A stretch of 32,124 nucleotides of DNA from positions 1-32,124 of IMG/VR virus record IMGVR_UViG_3300027659_000128. One strand, written 5' to 3'. Origin of the DNA: a virus. Shown in pieces: positions 5,230-32,124 of the stretch. The notes under the pieces were generated by a model, which worked only from the letters and a program-made list of their open reading frames with translations, had not been told where the DNA came from and searched no databases. Each line of letters opens with the position of its first letter. The first letter of the stretch is position 1. A program made the translations under genes and the position numbers.

Positions 5230-5294
5230 TTATATGTGTGTATATGTTTATGTATATGTATATGTATGGGAGTCCGATCGGATATCCGACCGGA
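5230..5294. repeat. TATATG-type short repeats and a GC-rich 22-bp dyad in the non-coding stretch 5009-5318
   Basis: Bases 5230-5267 are made of TATATG/TTTATG/TGTATA-like hexamers. They are followed by a dyad at 5273-5294: the halves TCCGATCGGAT and ATCCGACCGGA pair at 10 of 11 positions, and the dyad contains the shorter palindromes TCCGATCGGA and CGGATATCCG. No T-run follows on either strand, so this is not an intrinsic terminator. The roughly 310 bases between the start of the gene at 5008 and the end of the gene at 5319 hold this dyad, the inverted repeat at 5103-5145 and the operator-promoter, and no convincing gene. Confidence 0.5.
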
Positions 5295-5890: not shown

Positions 5891-7078
5891 TTGAAATTAT
5901 TCGGTAACATCAGCAAAGTCAATGAGAACGATGACGGAACTTTAACTGTTTCCGGCATTGCGTCTAGCGAAAGTATTGATTCCGACGGTGAGATCATTCT
6001 TGCAGCCGCGATTAAAAACAGCATAGGCGATTATATGCGGTTTGGGGCACTCCGGGAAATGCACCAGAACATCGCAGCTGGAACTACTCTGTCCATGAAA
6101 GTATCTGACGATGGTAAGACCGAGATCGAAGCTCTTGTGGTCGATCCTGTTTCAGTCAAGAAGGTTCTTGCAGGGGTGTTGAAGGGCTTCAGTATCGGCG
6201 GAAAAGTTACCAAGCGATCAGGACAAAACCGCAACATCATCGAAGCATTAAAACTGACTGAAGTTTCTTTGGTCGATAGACCCGCGAATCCTGATGCCAT
6301 GATTACGCTTTACAAAGCCGACACCATTGGCGATGAGCCAGAGGATGATGAAGTCGAAGTGAAAGAGATTGGAACGCCAGAGCGCACCGAAGAAGTCGCT
6401 AAATCCCTTTATTGCATTGCCGATCTAGCCTCGGTTCTTAACCACGCAAAATATGTTCAACGCACCTTAGCCCTTGAAGAAACCGGCTCGACGATTCCAG
6501 ACGAAATTAAAGAATGGATCTCTGAGGGTCTTGAAATCTTAAATCAAATGACGCAAGAGGAACTTACTCCTCTGATGTCTCAACAACCAACGGAGGGCGA
6601 TATGCCACAGAATGAAGTGATCGAAGAAATGAAAAAAGAAAAAGACAAGCCAGAGATGGAAGCAAAGATGAAAGAAGACCCTAAGAAAAAAGAAGATGCA
6701 AAAAAAGAAGACGCACCTAAAGAAGAAGCCCCTAAAGACGAAATGTCTCAAGAGGAAATGGTCAAAGAAATCCACACGATGCTTAAAGGCATGATGGAAA
6801 AGATGTATGCCCCCATTGAAGAAGAAAAGAAGAAAGCAGAATCGAATGATCTATCGAAATCTGCGAAAGAAAACGAATCCTTAAAAGATGAACTCGCTAA
6901 AACCACCAAGGCTTTAGCCGATTTGAAAAATGCCGAAAACAAAGGTTTTACTAAGGCGATCACGATTGACAAATCCGAAGATGGAATTGTTGCCAAGTCT
7001 GATGATGGTAAACCTAAATCAACCCTCGACCTAATCAAAAGCATCCATCAAAACGGTGGAAACAGATTTGGTTTTTAA
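5891..7078 (+). CDS. Prohead protease fused to scaffold
   Basis: Capsid maturation serine protease (S78/herpesvirus-assemblin-like fold) with a scaffolding tail. Counting 395 residues from the TTG at 5891, His58 lies in REMHQN, the probable nucleophile Ser101 in KGFSIGGKV, and the conserved LTEVSLVDRPANPDA at about 122-136. After residue about 150 the chain becomes acidic and then lysine/glutamate-rich and helical (residues about 235-340), as in scaffold proteins. The start at 5891 is preceded by GGAG and gives the usual beginning MKLFG; the longer TTG start at 5879 lacks a site. It is directly followed by the major capsid gene, and probably contains a nested scaffold gene. Confidence 0.88.
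   Translation: MKLFGNISKVNENDDGTLTVSGIASSESIDSDGEIILAAAIKNSIGDYMRFGALREMHQNIAAGTTLSMKVSDDGKTEIEALVVDPVSVKKVLAGVLKGFSIGGKVTKRSGQNRNIIEALKLTEVSLVDRPANPDAMITLYKADTIGDEPEDDEVEVKEIGTPERTEEVAKSLYCIADLASVLNHAKYVQRTLALEETGSTIPDEIKEWISEGLEILNQMTQEELTPLMSQQPTEGDMPQNEVIEEMKKEKDKPEMEAKMKEDPKKKEDAKKEDAPKEEAPKDEMSQEEMVKEIHTMLKGMMEKMYAPIEEEKKKAESNDLSKSAKENESLKDELAKTTKALADLKNAENKGFTKAITIDKSEDGIVAKSDDGKPKSTLDLIKSIHQNGGNRFGF
6602..7078 (+). CDS. Probable nested scaffold protein (internal start in the protease-scaffold gene)
   Basis: An in-frame ATG at 6602 is preceded by GGAGGG with near-ideal spacing, unusual inside a coding region. It would give a 158-residue product starting MPQNEVIEEM and made only of the charged helical part. 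Lambda encodes its scaffold Nu3 in the same way inside gene C. Separate expression is inferred from the binding site and the domain boundary. Confidence 0.55.
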   Translation: MPQNEVIEEMKKEKDKPEMEAKMKEDPKKKEDAKKEDAPKEEAPKDEMSQEEMVKEIHTMLKGMMEKMYAPIEEEKKKAESNDLSKSAKENESLKDELAKTTKALADLKNAENKGFTKAITIDKSEDGIVAKSDDGKPKSTLDLIKSIHQNGGNRFGF

Positions 7079-27102: not shown

Positions 27103-27475
27103 TAAGTTTAATACTTACAATCGAAAACTTTATAAGACTAAAAATGAAGAAGGCAAAATCGAACAGCGACCGGTGATCTTAAAATCAAAAGATCAAGCGA
27201 TCAAAGAAGTGGAGTCACATGCTGATCCGAAATGGATCGCCAAAGCAAATGAAGCTCTGGACATCCTCATTAAAAACAATCAAGAGTTCACCAGCGATCA
27301 AGTCTGGAAACTTCTCGACTCTTGGCAAGTGCCTCGACCTCATGCACCGAGTGCGATGGGATCAATCATGCGACGTGCTGCCTTAGCGAAAAGAATTAAA
27401 AAGACCGGTCGGTTTATTCCTTCCTCACAAGGGACTAATCACCAAAGGGACGTTGCCGTCTGGGGAGTCGTATGA
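27077..27475 (+). CDS. Replication-region protein with winged-helix-like domain
   Basis: 132 residues from the ATG at 27077 (GGAG upstream), overlapping rusA by 26 bases. The N-terminal third is basic (KFNTYNRKLYKTKNEEGKIEQRP). Residues about 50-132 (WIAKANEALDILIKNNQEFTSDQVWKLLDS, PSAMGSIMRRAALAKRIKKTGRFIPS, DVAVWGV) match a small winged-helix module that I recall in many phage replication regions. It lies directly before the initiator, so a role in origin or helicase loading is possible but unproven. Confidence 0.65.
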   Translation: MLFPQEEIDKFNTYNRKLYKTKNEEGKIEQRPVILKSKDQAIKEVESHADPKWIAKANEALDILIKNNQEFTSDQVWKLLDSWQVPRPHAPSAMGSIMRRAALAKRIKKTGRFIPSSQGTNHQRDVAVWGVV

Positions 27476-27957
27476 AGCCCTTCTGGTTTCCCATTGAACC
27501 GGCTGCCTTCCTATCGGACAGTCTTGTGGATCAAATGACCACAATCGAATTAGGGGCTTGTTTCAGGCTCTTGTGCCGACAATGGATAGACGGTGACCTA
27601 CCAGACGATCCAGAGCAGCTTCGTCGCTTGGCGAGGCTCTCTAAGCCTGAAATGGATGAGGCTTGGGAAGTCATACAAAGGTTCTTCCCTAAGTCGGGAG
27701 ATGGCAAACGAGCCAACCGATATGCTAATGAGCGAAGGAAAGAAGTAACGGAAACCCTATCTAAACGCCATGATGCAGGCGTCTTAGGGGCTGAAAAGCG
27801 ATGGGGTAGCAATAGCAATCGCATAGCAAACGCATGGCAACCGCATAGCAAAGGCAATGCAATAGATATAGTTAAAGTAAAACAAAATATAAAAGAAAAG
27901 AATGATAAGAAAAATACCGATGATATTTTGGATTTAATCTCTAAAACCATTCCTTAA
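27472..27957 (+). CDS. DUF1376-type replication initiator with internal origin
   Basis: 161 residues. The N-terminal domain (about 1-112) is DUF1376: WFPIEPAAFLSDSLVDQMTTIELGACFRLLCRQWIDGDLPDDP, NRYANERRKEV and the basic RHDAGVLGAEKRWGS typical of phage replisome-organiser-like proteins. The tail is Lys-rich and probably unstructured. Gene bases 27807-27863 carry tandem 11-bp DNA repeats, followed by A-rich DNA. No helicase or polymerase is encoded, so it should recruit host replication enzymes. It starts in the stop of the previous gene. Confidence 0.82.
   Translation: MKPFWFPIEPAAFLSDSLVDQMTTIELGACFRLLCRQWIDGDLPDDPEQLRRLARLSKPEMDEAWEVIQRFFPKSGDGKRANRYANERRKEVTETLSKRHDAGVLGAEKRWGSNSNRIANAWQPHSKGNAIDIVKVKQNIKEKNDKKNTDDILDLISKTIP
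27807..27957 (+). other. Candidate replication origin: 11-bp iterons plus A-rich unwinding region
   Basis: Five copies at an exact 11-bp spacing begin at 27809, 27820, 27831, 27842 and 27853. Three carry CGCAT(A/G)GCAA; the first shares ATAGCAA, and the fifth is more diverged (AATGCAA). One extra TAGCAA lies at 27807. The spacing of about one helical turn would put bound proteins on one face. Because 11 is not a multiple of 3, the repeats are a DNA signal, not a protein repeat. They are followed from about 27861 by strongly A-rich DNA, as in lambda's origin inside gene O. Confidence 0.68.
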
Positions 27958-27967
27958 GGAGGAATTA

Positions 27968-28282
27968 ATGTATCAAACCATCAGAGAAGCCTTACTCACC
28001 AAGGGAATATCGTGTTCCTTCTGGGGCAAGAAGGACGAATCAGGCGTAATGGGTAAGCCTACTCGCTTATATATCAACCATCAAATGCCCAAAGATGTGA
28101 AGGTCTACATCGAGTTCCCTGACCCAGAGACCCTACTCAATGGGTCAATCAAAGTTAAGATCTACCCCTTCGACGACACTACGGCGGGTAAGGATAAGTT
28201 TATGACTTGTCTAAAAGTAGCCAAAGAGAATTGGGGCAATGTCCCGCAGCTCATCAACGAAATCGTCATGGGTGATTTATGA
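27968..28282 (+). CDS. Protein of unknown function
   Basis: 104 residues with a strong AAGGAGG site. The stretch TRLYINHQMPKDVKVYIEFPDPETLLNGSIKVKIYPF is a beta sheet of charged strands, followed by helices to the end INEIVMGDL. It overlaps the next gene by four bases. I do not recognise a family. It is the first gene after the initiator and its iteron/A-rich region. Confidence 0.68.
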   Translation: MYQTIREALLTKGISCSFWGKKDESGVMGKPTRLYINHQMPKDVKVYIEFPDPETLLNGSIKVKIYPFDDTTAGKDKFMTCLKVAKENWGNVPQLINEIVMGDL

Positions 28283-29709: not shown

Positions 29710-30516
29710 TTATTCTGTATCAACACTTTGGGCATCATCTTGGTCATCAACAAAGCAACCGCAACCGCCTATGTCAAACATATCTACATGGTGATTAGCC
29801 TCAACGCTCAAACGCAAATCCCTCAAGGTATAAGGCTTATTAACACCATTTATGCTTTTTTTAAGAAAAGCGATGTCTTTATCAAAATGTTTTCTAAACT
29901 CCTGTTCCCGATCTTCGTGGTATTTGTAGCGTTCTGGCATCTGCTTTAATAAGTTAGCAAAATGTCCTTGACCCGCTTTGACGCAAAAGCCACCGCAATT
30001 ATTATGTGCAAAGCCCATCGCATAGAGTCTAGGTGGCTCAATGCCTTCGGCTTTTAGCAATTCAATCATTTCGTTTTTATCAAGATAAGGGGCTACGGTC
30101 ATTGGGGCTTCGTAAGTCCAGCCTTCCTTGTCTTTAATTTTTTTAAGCCGATCAAAGCGATGAATCTCTGTCCAATCAATCCCTACATAAATAACTGTAT
30201 CTGCCTTATTGCAATTCTCTTTTAGCCACTTCTTGGCTGGAAGCCTCTTTAGGTAATGCGAACAGTTATCTACTCGGCTGTTCGATAGGAACTTCATATC
30301 CCAAAACACTTCCCAGAGATCACGACCGTCCTCAAGCACGACTAATTTACCACCCACATTTGCAGAGGCTTGGTATAGAAATCTATACAAGTCCTCATCT
30401 TCGCTCTTGGTATCAGTAAACAAAAGAACAAGATCATCTGTTCCATACTTTTCGGCTACTCTTTTAGCACAAGCCCAAGAGCCTATGCCACCAGAGAACA
30501 TTACGACGTGCTTCAT
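29710..30516 (-). CDS. PP-loop (PAPS reductase-like) protein
   Basis: 268 residues of the adenylating PP-loop superfamily, which includes PAPS reductase, DndC and tRNA thiolation enzymes. The P-loop is FSGGIGSWA (residues 7-15). Downstream are LLFTDT, NCSHYLKRLP (Cys85), FAHNNCGGFC (Cys174, Cys178) and IGGCGCF (Cys252, Cys254); these cysteines could hold an iron-sulfur cluster. Such proteins activate a substrate with ATP, often to add sulfur to nucleic acid. In phages the role is mostly unknown; DNA or tRNA modification is a reasonable guess. It lies two bases after the metallophosphoesterase gene. Confidence 0.85.
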   Translation of the reverse strand: MKHVVMFSGGIGSWACAKRVAEKYGTDDLVLLFTDTKSEDEDLYRFLYQASANVGGKLVVLEDGRDLWEVFWDMKFLSNSRVDNCSHYLKRLPAKKWLKENCNKADTVIYVGIDWTEIHRFDRLKKIKDKEGWTYEAPMTVAPYLDKNEMIELLKAEGIEPPRLYAMGFAHNNCGGFCVKAGQGHFANLLKQMPERYKYHEDREQEFRKHFDKDIAFLKKSINGVNKPYTLRDLRLSVEANHHVDMFDIGGCGCFVDDQDDAQSVDTE

Positions 30517-30518
30517 AG

Positions 30519-31625
30519 CTAACCCCGCTTGTAGAACTTGCCGCCCATCAGGCAGAAATCATGCGTCGTGTCGATGTATTCAAACTGAGTCCGCTTATTG
30601 TGGGTATCGACGTGGCACAGAATGAACCCATTACCCCACTTCTCCCCAGCGGTATAAGATGCCTCTCGCTTGTGACCAGAGCCTAATTGATGCCATTCAT
30701 ACGTTCCAAAGATGGGGGAGTAAGCCGACCTGACCAAGTGCTTATGATGATGTCCATTGACCCCCGGATAGCCCATATCAAAGCCATGAGGGAAGTGATG
30801 AAAGAGAATCGAATCGTAGGCGATGTAATAATTCTTTCGCAGCTCATGATTCACGTCTGAGTTACTAAAGGCAGCCAAGTCCATACGTGCGATGTAGTTT
30901 ACTTCATACTTCTTAATGCCTAGCAAATCTGGAATAGTCATGCCATGCAAATCAGATAAGACCGTAACGAGAGCTGGAGTCGCTTCGGTTAAATGACGCA
31001 GCAAACGGAACTCATGATTGCCTTCGACCATCGTGAGTTCTGCTTCCGGTGCGTTGTCCCTTATATCCTCAAGAAACTTATGCACCCATTTAATTCGCTC
31101 GATGGGCTTATACTCTCTAGGGTCTTGGGTATATTTTCCGAACTCCGTCATGTCGAAGATGTCGCCATTCAGCACGATCTTCTCAGGCTGGACACGCTTA
31201 CAAGCCTCTAAGAACATCTCACGATAAAAGGGGTCGCACTCCACGTCGTGTATATCCGACCCACAAAGAATCGTTTGGAAACGTCTATCGAATCCTCTTA
31301 AGTAATTGCCCTCGAAGGACATTTTATCAATCGTCATCTTTCGCTGGTTATCTTTAGAAGCGTGTTTCGCAATATGCTTTTCTAATCCCTGAGCGTGTCT
31401 GCTTAAAACAATATTGGATTGTTTCTTAAACTCTGCGAACGTGCCGAAGTATCGATTCCAAGTGGACTCGCTGATCTGACTATTGTTTCTAAAGAAGTTC
31501 CTAGATATGACCTGTTCGGGATTCTCCTCGGCAATGCGTTGCAACTCACGAATACAATCGTCTTTCGACCACTCCAAGTGCTGGCGACCCGCATCCTCGC
31601 TCAACGGTATTTGACGCTTGACCAT
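30519..31625 (-). CDS. Metallophosphoesterase with N-terminal DNA-binding-like domain
   Basis: Binuclear metal phosphoesterase of the calcineurin type. From the ATG at 31625 (AAGGGGG upstream) the protein has 368 residues; a longer frame from 31694 would cross the terS start and lacks a site. Metal-site motifs: CGSDIHD (Asp124, His126), LNGDIFD (Asp155, Asp158), VEGNHE (Asn203, His204), HHFPHG and NGHHHKH. Residues about 18-75 (KDDCIRELQRIA... ISESTWNRYFGTFAEFKKQSNI) resemble the homing-endonuclease-associated repeat, a small DNA-binding domain. The enzyme may act on DNA ends or nucleotides; the operon partner is a PP-loop protein. Confidence 0.82.
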   Translation of the reverse strand: MVKRQIPLSEDAGRQHLEWSKDDCIRELQRIAEENPEQVISRNFFRNNSQISESTWNRYFGTFAEFKKQSNIVLSRHAQGLEKHIAKHASKDNQRKMTIDKMSFEGNYLRGFDRRFQTILCGSDIHDVECDPFYREMFLEACKRVQPEKIVLNGDIFDMTEFGKYTQDPREYKPIERIKWVHKFLEDIRDNAPEAELTMVEGNHEFRLLRHLTEATPALVTVLSDLHGMTIPDLLGIKKYEVNYIARMDLAAFSNSDVNHELRKNYYIAYDSILFHHFPHGFDMGYPGVNGHHHKHLVRSAYSPIFGTYEWHQLGSGHKREASYTAGEKWGNGFILCHVDTHNKRTQFEYIDTTHDFCLMGGKFYKRG

Positions 31626-31641
31626 AGATCCCCCTTGCGAT

Positions 31642-31682
31642 AAGTGTTCCACACTTTTATGTGCAAGTGCTAATCTAAACAC
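31642..31682. promoter_or_regulatory. Divergent control region between terS and the minus-strand operon
   Basis: AAGTGT-TCC-ACACTT (31642-31656) is a 6-bp-arm dyad, with a further half-site AAGTG at 31665-31669. A possible -10 TAATCT (31671-31676) lies six bases before the terS ATG, with TTCCAC (31647-31652) 18 bases further up as a weak -35. If right, terS mRNA would start about at its ATG and be leaderless; no ribosome binding site is present. Confidence 0.4.
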
Positions 31683-32124
31683 ATGAAAAGTCAAGATAAG
31701 TTCACCAACAAGGAACTAGCCTTCGTTCGAGAATACGTGAAGTGCAACAACGCTACCCAAGCTGCAATCTCGGCTGGGTATTCTGAGAACAGCGCAGAGG
31801 TGCTAGGCTGCCGACTGTTAGCCAAGCCTAAGATTCAAGCCGAGTTATCCAGACGAGTCTCTCAAATAAGCGAACGAGTGGACGTGAAGGTCTCGGATGT
31901 GCTGAAGGTTATGAAAGCGATCCTCACCTTTGACCCTAGAGATCTATACTTCCCAGACGGATCGATTAAACCACCCAACGAGTGGTCTGATGAAGTCGCT
32001 ATGGCGATACAGGGCTTTGAAGTAACCGAGTTATTTGATGGTAATGGAGACGCTAAACACGCTTTTGGAATGATAAAGAAAATAAAACTAGCGGATCGAA
32101 TGAAAGCAGCCGACACGCTGGTCA
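31683..32124 (+). CDS. terS: Terminase small subunit (runs off the right edge)
   Basis: DNA-recognition subunit of the packaging terminase. The first 147 residues are present: KFTNKELAFVREYVKCNNATQAAISAGYSENSAEVLGCRLLAKPKIQAEL (N-terminal helix-turn-helix of the Terminase_2 family), then FDPRDLYFPDGSIKPPNEWSDEVAMAIQGFEV and KIKLADRMKAADTLV. These segments are typical. The remainder is at bases 2-52 of the window, giving about 163 residues. No ribosome binding site is visible; an upstream in-frame stop at 31671-31673 fixes the start at 31683. Confidence 0.93.
   Translation, partial: MKSQDKFTNKELAFVREYVKCNNATQAAISAGYSENSAEVLGCRLLAKPKIQAELSRRVSQISERVDVKVSDVLKVMKAILTFDPRDLYFPDGSIKPPNEWSDEVAMAIQGFEVTELFDGNGDAKHAFGMIKKIKLADRMKAADTLV

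Follow-up and report, generated by a model that had tools for sequence, protein, structure and literature searches.

The segment at 27812-27936 of the DNA analysed here is very probably a phage replication origin, situated within the gene for the initiator that acts on it, a protein of the DUF1376 family. The repeats, their spacing of about 11.5 bp in the family, the constraint at DNA level, the A+T tract and the gene context are observed, and the fold of the protein is predicted; that the protein binds the repeats, that the tract melts, that a helicase is recruited and that the segment works as an origin is inferred.

The window, i.e. the whole stretch that was analysed, is a complete IMG/VR virus record of 32,124 bases. 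It carries the gene set of a tailed phage (portal, head, tail and lysis genes and both terminase subunits), and its first 25 kb have no near match within the annotated phage collection. The gene for the large terminase is at the left edge (1-1475) and that for the small terminase (31683-32124) runs off the right edge, which suggests that the genome is near-complete and was cut inside the terminase region. In the early region, genes for an Erf-like annealing protein and RusA precede the DUF1376 gene. Between the early region and the terminase, PAPS-reductase-like and metallophosphoesterase genes occupy the minus strand (29710-31694) and are oriented against nearly all other genes of the window. 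A TGTATA hexamer is repeated in 4.8 copies at 5239-5267. The earlier note had described a phage without helicase or polymerase gene, and indeed none of the open reading frames (ORFs) of the window could be recognised as a helicase, helicase loader, primase or polymerase gene. The features referred to below are the following (L002 is the relative with a 93% identical protein):

27472..27957, plus strand: DUF1376 gene (161 aa), proposed origin-binding initiator, host of the array (PF07120, phrog_3992, AF2, Foldseek)
27484..27729, plus strand: DUF1376 domain proper, predicted winged-helix-like DNA-binding fold (Pfam match, residues 5-86)
27807..27812, plus strand: extra TAGCAA core, 6 bp before the core of iteron 1 and outside the 11-bp register (TACTAA in L002)
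27812..27822, plus strand: iteron 1, ATAGCAATCGC (repeat call, GCAA core)
27823..27833, plus strand: iteron 2, ATAGCAAACGC (repeat call, GCAA core)
27834..27844, plus strand: iteron 3, ATGGCAACCGC (ATGGCAAACGC in L002)
27845..27855, plus strand: iteron 4, ATAGCAAAGGC (GCAA core)
27856..27866, plus strand: iteron 5, AATGCAATAGA, degenerate (6/11 to consensus, GCAA core in register)
27844..27936, plus strand: run of 31 codons identical to those of L002 (permutation p 2e-4), spanning the end of the array and the A-rich tract
27857..27936, plus strand: A-rich tract, proposed unwinding element (80% A+T, 54% A; all codons identical in L002)
27968..28282, plus strand: next gene (104 aa, unknown function; similar ORFs in L002 and L003)

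The array (27812-27866) is defined by GCAA cores at 27815, 27826, 27837, 27848 and 27859, exactly 11 bp apart. Five 11-bp repeats in exact register had been claimed before, and this description holds with the qualification that units 1-4 are good and the fifth is degenerate. Two more GCAA sequences, at 27809 and 27854, are out of register. Tandem Repeats Finder reported a period of 11 at 27812-27856 (score 62) and a period of 22 at 27809-27862, whose score of 71 was the highest tandem-repeat score in the window. At lag 11, 27/33 positions matched (binomial P 1.6e-11, about 1e-5 when corrected for lags 7-30 and all positions), and in 100 first-order Markov simulations based on the window this regularity was never reached (best 23/33). 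Since 11 is not a multiple of 3, the reading frame rotates along the array, and the repeat score was higher than after shuffling of synonymous codons with the peptide unchanged (p=0.016); the period thus breaks the codon frame, as the earlier note had maintained. The sole equal array in the window, at 6686 with lag 15, is in codon phase. There, a 15-bp tandem repeat (6689-6742) lies inside the head maturation protease/head gene, and it is an ordinary peptide repeat, in contrast to the out-of-phase 11-bp array. A search of viral contigs with the pattern GCAATGCAATAGATATAG returned only the known relative and one chance-level match.

Regular, helically phased direct repeats and an adjacent A+T-rich element are criteria of iteron-type origins. 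The first is met by the five cores at 11 bp. The second is met by the A-rich tract that had been reported after the repeats, which belongs to the top 0.05% of the 80-nt windows of the sequence for A+T, and by the A+T-rich tract that adjoins the array across the family (Fisher 5e-12). The inflection of GC skew that had been predicted at the array did not materialise: cumulative skew is flat at 27.8 kb. A change of GC skew is a supporting, not an obligatory, trait of phage origins.

In L002 the array is kept, with one unit nearer to the consensus. The two DUF1376 genes differ in 48 of 161 codons, yet the synonymous changes are concentrated upstream: codons 1-90 contain 32 of them and the following 65 codons only one. 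The block of 31 identical codons stands out because the neighbouring genes are only 84-87% identical to those of L002, but it was seen in one relative only and recent recombination could explain it.

The window protein scored 28.7 bits against PF07120, just under the Pfam cut-off of 30.1, whereas L002 scored above it (31.3 bits), and all 32 aligned relatives matched the family at E values up to 1. The protein also matched phrog_3992, a primosomal protein (E 1.8e-11), which is the PHROGs label for the DUF1376 family. The AlphaFold model consists of a confident, mostly helical, winged-helix-like domain (pLDDT 90-97 across residues 11-100) and a disordered linker. In the model of the longer L013 protein an additional C-terminal domain follows the linker; this domain, present in the longer DUF1376 forms, is missing from the window protein. 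Foldseek matched the window protein to models of DUF1376 proteins from other phages (E 6.7e-9), and DUF1376, replication and replisome-organiser proteins were matched in the viral structure library. Fold matches in the PDB were weak and comprised MarR-type winged helices, Rep initiators and the RuvB winged helix. The solved initiators had E values of about 0.3, among them 5kbj, 4pt7 and 4pql, which we take to be RepA_N structures; MarR-type regulators scored equally well or better. Sequence searches against solved structures gave no match, and Pfam scans of the window protein and the 32 relatives detected DUF1376 only, neither RepA_N nor the lambda O family.

For the family-wide analysis DUF1376 genes were gathered from viral contigs, genomes and phages, and 44 were kept below 80% identity. 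The genes were anchored on the end of the DUF1376 domain (W111 in the window protein), beyond which 30 continue into a linker. About 130 nt after the anchor were tested with simple tracts masked, since unmasked lag scores were inflated by (TCACCT)n/SPSPSP tracts. Repeats were in excess over the rest of the locus at p<0.05 in 20 of the 30 linkers (12 at p<0.01; Fisher 1e-21) and over synonymous-codon shuffles in 24 (Fisher 2e-25), so that, depending on the comparison, 6-10 of the 30 fall short of p<0.05. Out-of-codon-phase repeats alone remained significant (Fisher 1.6e-15). The excess was confined to 0 to +60 nt past the domain; neither the domain itself nor the C-terminal part showed it. The lambda ori, used as positive control, scored in the same test. 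The Fisher values are indicative only, because related genes and overlapping windows were treated as independent, and the gene sample is biased toward what the scans recovered. The earlier note had suggested checking whether the DNA is conserved while the peptide varies, and these repeats, which beat synonymous shuffles in most linkers, answer in its favour more strongly than foreseen, as do the units upstream of the short-form genes described below and the block of codons shared with L002.

Matching 6-mers were far more frequent than expected at lags 11 (60 vs 1.8), 12 (98 vs 3.0), 23 (41 vs 1.3), 24 (41 vs 3.2) and 46 (20 vs 0.8), with a further peak at 36. The family spacing is about 11.5 bp and thus independent of the codons. 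Some repeats are in codon phase, and the motif occurs in at least two codon-phase/strand classes in 30/30 genes. The motif itself is TAGCAA in the window, TGCAAA in Acetobacter phages, CAAGCA in Burkholderia and cyanobacterial phages, GTTCAA in Rac and Pseudomonas, and ACCCA and AAGGGT in other lineages. Two Acetobacter-type genes, L008 (GCAAA) and L097 (ACAAA), have the same 11/12 alternation at 22, 33, 45, 68 and 79 nt; their motifs and peptides differ and the positions are equal. L003, which is 50% identical, has a different repeat, ACCCAATGGGT, at the same place, followed by an A+T-rich GATA-type tract; in L106 a ACCCAATGGGT-type repeat is followed by (GACAAA)n, and L107 has GACCTATAGCA units. 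Across the family the motif varies by lineage and the layout is constant.

Of the long linkers, 20/30 contained a period-6 tract at p<0.05, as did the upstream region of 9/11 short genes (see below); in the remaining 2/11 it is located farther upstream. This tract, often read as SPSPSP in the long forms, therefore also looks like a DNA element. A test of purine/pyrimidine asymmetry was weak (Fisher 0.012). In L104, L102, L101, L008 and L013 the iterons and the (TCACCT)n tract are followed by a hairpin whose loop, TCACTTCGTTC, is constant and whose arms vary but remain complementary, e.g. GGTTCT-TCACTTCGTTC-AGAACC (peptide SSLRSE). The genes with this hairpin are those of alphaproteobacterial and similar phages, and it is absent from the window linker; it is possibly a priming or other single-stranded DNA element.

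Marine DUF1376 genes of about 130 aa stop at the anchor, before the linker, and none of 13 short forms had a repeat excess downstream of the domain. Upstream of many of these genes, however, there are 11-bp units of the window type (TATGGCAATGC, ATAGCAATGCC), followed by a TTCACC-type tract. No ORF of at least 40 aa covers the upstream units in L044 and L052, and none on the strand of the gene in L074; in Pelagibacter phage EXVC032P the units lie between annotated genes, except for the last, which serves as an annotated start. Window-type units that are non-coding in several loci indicate that the repeats are a feature of the DNA and not of the peptide. The masked-repeat excess upstream of short forms was significant in only 3/11 (Fisher 0.004), hence the claim of an upstream array rests mainly on the visible 11-bp units. 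A promoter-like TTGACA sequence is found near the upstream array.

The neighbours of the DUF1376 gene in relatives are replication genes. Rac-SA53 has ydaU followed by lambda P, and the gene downstream encodes IstB/DnaC in L103, DnaB in L006 and L107 and a DnaC-like loader in L106; the phages concerned include a Leptolyngbya phage (DnaB) and a Pseudomonas phage (DnaC/IstB). In lambdoid relatives, which comprise Rac-SA53 and the Pseudomonas phage, the DUF1376 gene comes after cI/cro/cII-type genes, and in L102 a DnaA-type HTH protein is encoded next to it. In an Acinetobacter prophage YdaU, given without a known function, adjoins the gene of a helicase loader. Together with the DNA-level repeats past the domain, this lambda-O gene order supports the lambda-like layout, with the origin inside the initiator gene, proposed in the earlier note. 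A helicase-loader gene downstream, seen in relatives, was not recognised in the window. The 104-aa gene that follows has no Pfam or PHROG match, and an ORF of this kind is also near the DUF1376 gene in L003; its product is a possible but unproven partner of the initiator.

In the mechanism that we envisage, the N-terminal winged-helix domain would bind the 11-bp iterons with one protomer per helical turn, which would place adjacent protomers on one face of the DNA. The assembled row may then strain and melt the adjacent A-rich tract, and the initiator would pass the open DNA to the helicase machinery. The hand-over in relatives could proceed through the C-terminal domain and the neighbouring lambda-P/DnaC/DnaB protein, in the window phage through the host or an unrecognised phage partner. 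As the array encodes only disordered linker, its DNA is free to evolve as binding sites.

The repeats could instead be operators, through which a winged-helix regulator controls its own operon while replication begins elsewhere. The best PDB fold matches are MarR-type regulators, and the array of the short forms, upstream of the gene and near the TTGACA sequence, is placed as operators might be. We consider this unlikely: inside the gene and downstream of the domain, as in the 30 long forms, is a poor position for an operator, the array is accompanied by the A+T and hexamer tracts, and its neighbours are replication genes. Autoregulation could, moreover, coexist with origin function. Slightly less likely still is that the segment is an origin or other replication site bound by a protein other than DUF1376, such as host DnaA or another phage protein. 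Binding has not been shown for DUF1376, and the DnaA-type HTH gene of L102 offers a candidate, but the array tracks DUF1376 genes across phages of many hosts and stays close to them even in the short forms, and its motif shifts with lineage, unlike host DnaA boxes.

That the repeats are a by-product of a low-complexity linker or of replication slippage, without function in the DNA, seems hardly tenable. The predicted disorder of the linker and the repeats in codon phase are compatible with it, but the repeats are not recovered when the codons of these peptides are shuffled synonymously, the out-of-phase repeats are significant alone, similar units occur in non-coding DNA upstream of relatives' genes, and synonymous changes are absent from the 31-codon block.

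With the reading as an origin within the initiator gene preferred, the recurring layout suggests that DUF1376 genes encode widespread, uncharacterised phage replication starters. We incline, with considerable reserve, to a broader interpretation, in which DUF1376 proteins form a large and so far unrecognised group of initiators, in phages as well as prophages, with iterons phased at about 11.5 bp and with specificities that diverged between lineages, binding being inferred. The origin would then be a relocatable module of iterons and a hexamer or A-rich tract, located in the gene as a disposable linker in the long forms and upstream in the short marine forms.

In annotations DUF1376/YdaU still has no assigned function, although the family is spread over phages and prophages of Acetobacter, Burkholderia, Escherichia, Pseudomonas, cyanobacteria, Rhizobium and Pelagibacter. 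As the origin is predicted at a constant position, within the gene or next to it, the start of replication becomes testable in all of them, and the family offers natural protein-site pairs for studying co-evolution of initiator and origin inside one coding sequence. No binding or replication data were found for any DUF1376 protein. In the open literature consulted that names DUF1376 no link to an origin was found; subscription papers, among them work on oriJ plasmids, were outside the scope, and priority is therefore uncertain.

The layout of an origin within the initiator gene is already known from lambda O and from pSK41 RepA_N. In lambda the iterons (annotated in J02459) lie inside O, between the parts encoding the DNA-binding N-terminal and the C-terminal portions, and are followed by a region of high A+T content (PMC6022878). 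Likewise, the iterons of the DUF1376 gene come after a DNA-binding-type domain and before an A+T-rich tract, and in several phages the gene occupies the position of O before lambda P or DnaC. In contrast, the iterons of lambda are inverted repeats of 18 bp at a spacing of 20-24 bp, whereas the units of the window are 11 bp long at 11 bp and the spacing in the family is 11-12 or 23; Pfam scans revealed no sequence similarity to lambda O. In pSK41 four Rep boxes, located midway along the rep gene, are bound by the N-terminal domain of the RepA_N protein that this gene encodes, the part of the protein encoded by the ori is a dispensable linker, and recruitment is assigned to a separate C-terminal domain (PMC5703833). 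The DUF1376 system shares with it the repeats inside its own gene, and RepA_N-type structures occur among the weak fold matches, but there is no sequence match, the fold match has an E value of about 0.3 and the window protein has no C-terminal domain.

The Rac prophage contains an active, normally repressed origin, oriJ (PMC3945230). The ydaU gene of Rac type belongs to the DUF1376 family, carries GTTCAAAC-type repeats past the domain, different in motif from those of the window, and is followed by a lambda-P-like gene. The open literature yielded no mapping of oriJ to these repeats; the predicted DUF1376 origin could explain oriJ. RepA-like initiators of mycobacteriophages support autonomous replication, and their origin is thought to lie within or adjoining the gene (PMC7157519). 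In the DUF1376 protein of the Acetobacter phage, the C-terminal domain (C-terminal part of L008:2974-3822) matches many annotated mycobacteriophage replication initiators, which points to a shuffling of domains among phage initiators. This similarity concerns the domain that is missing from the window protein.
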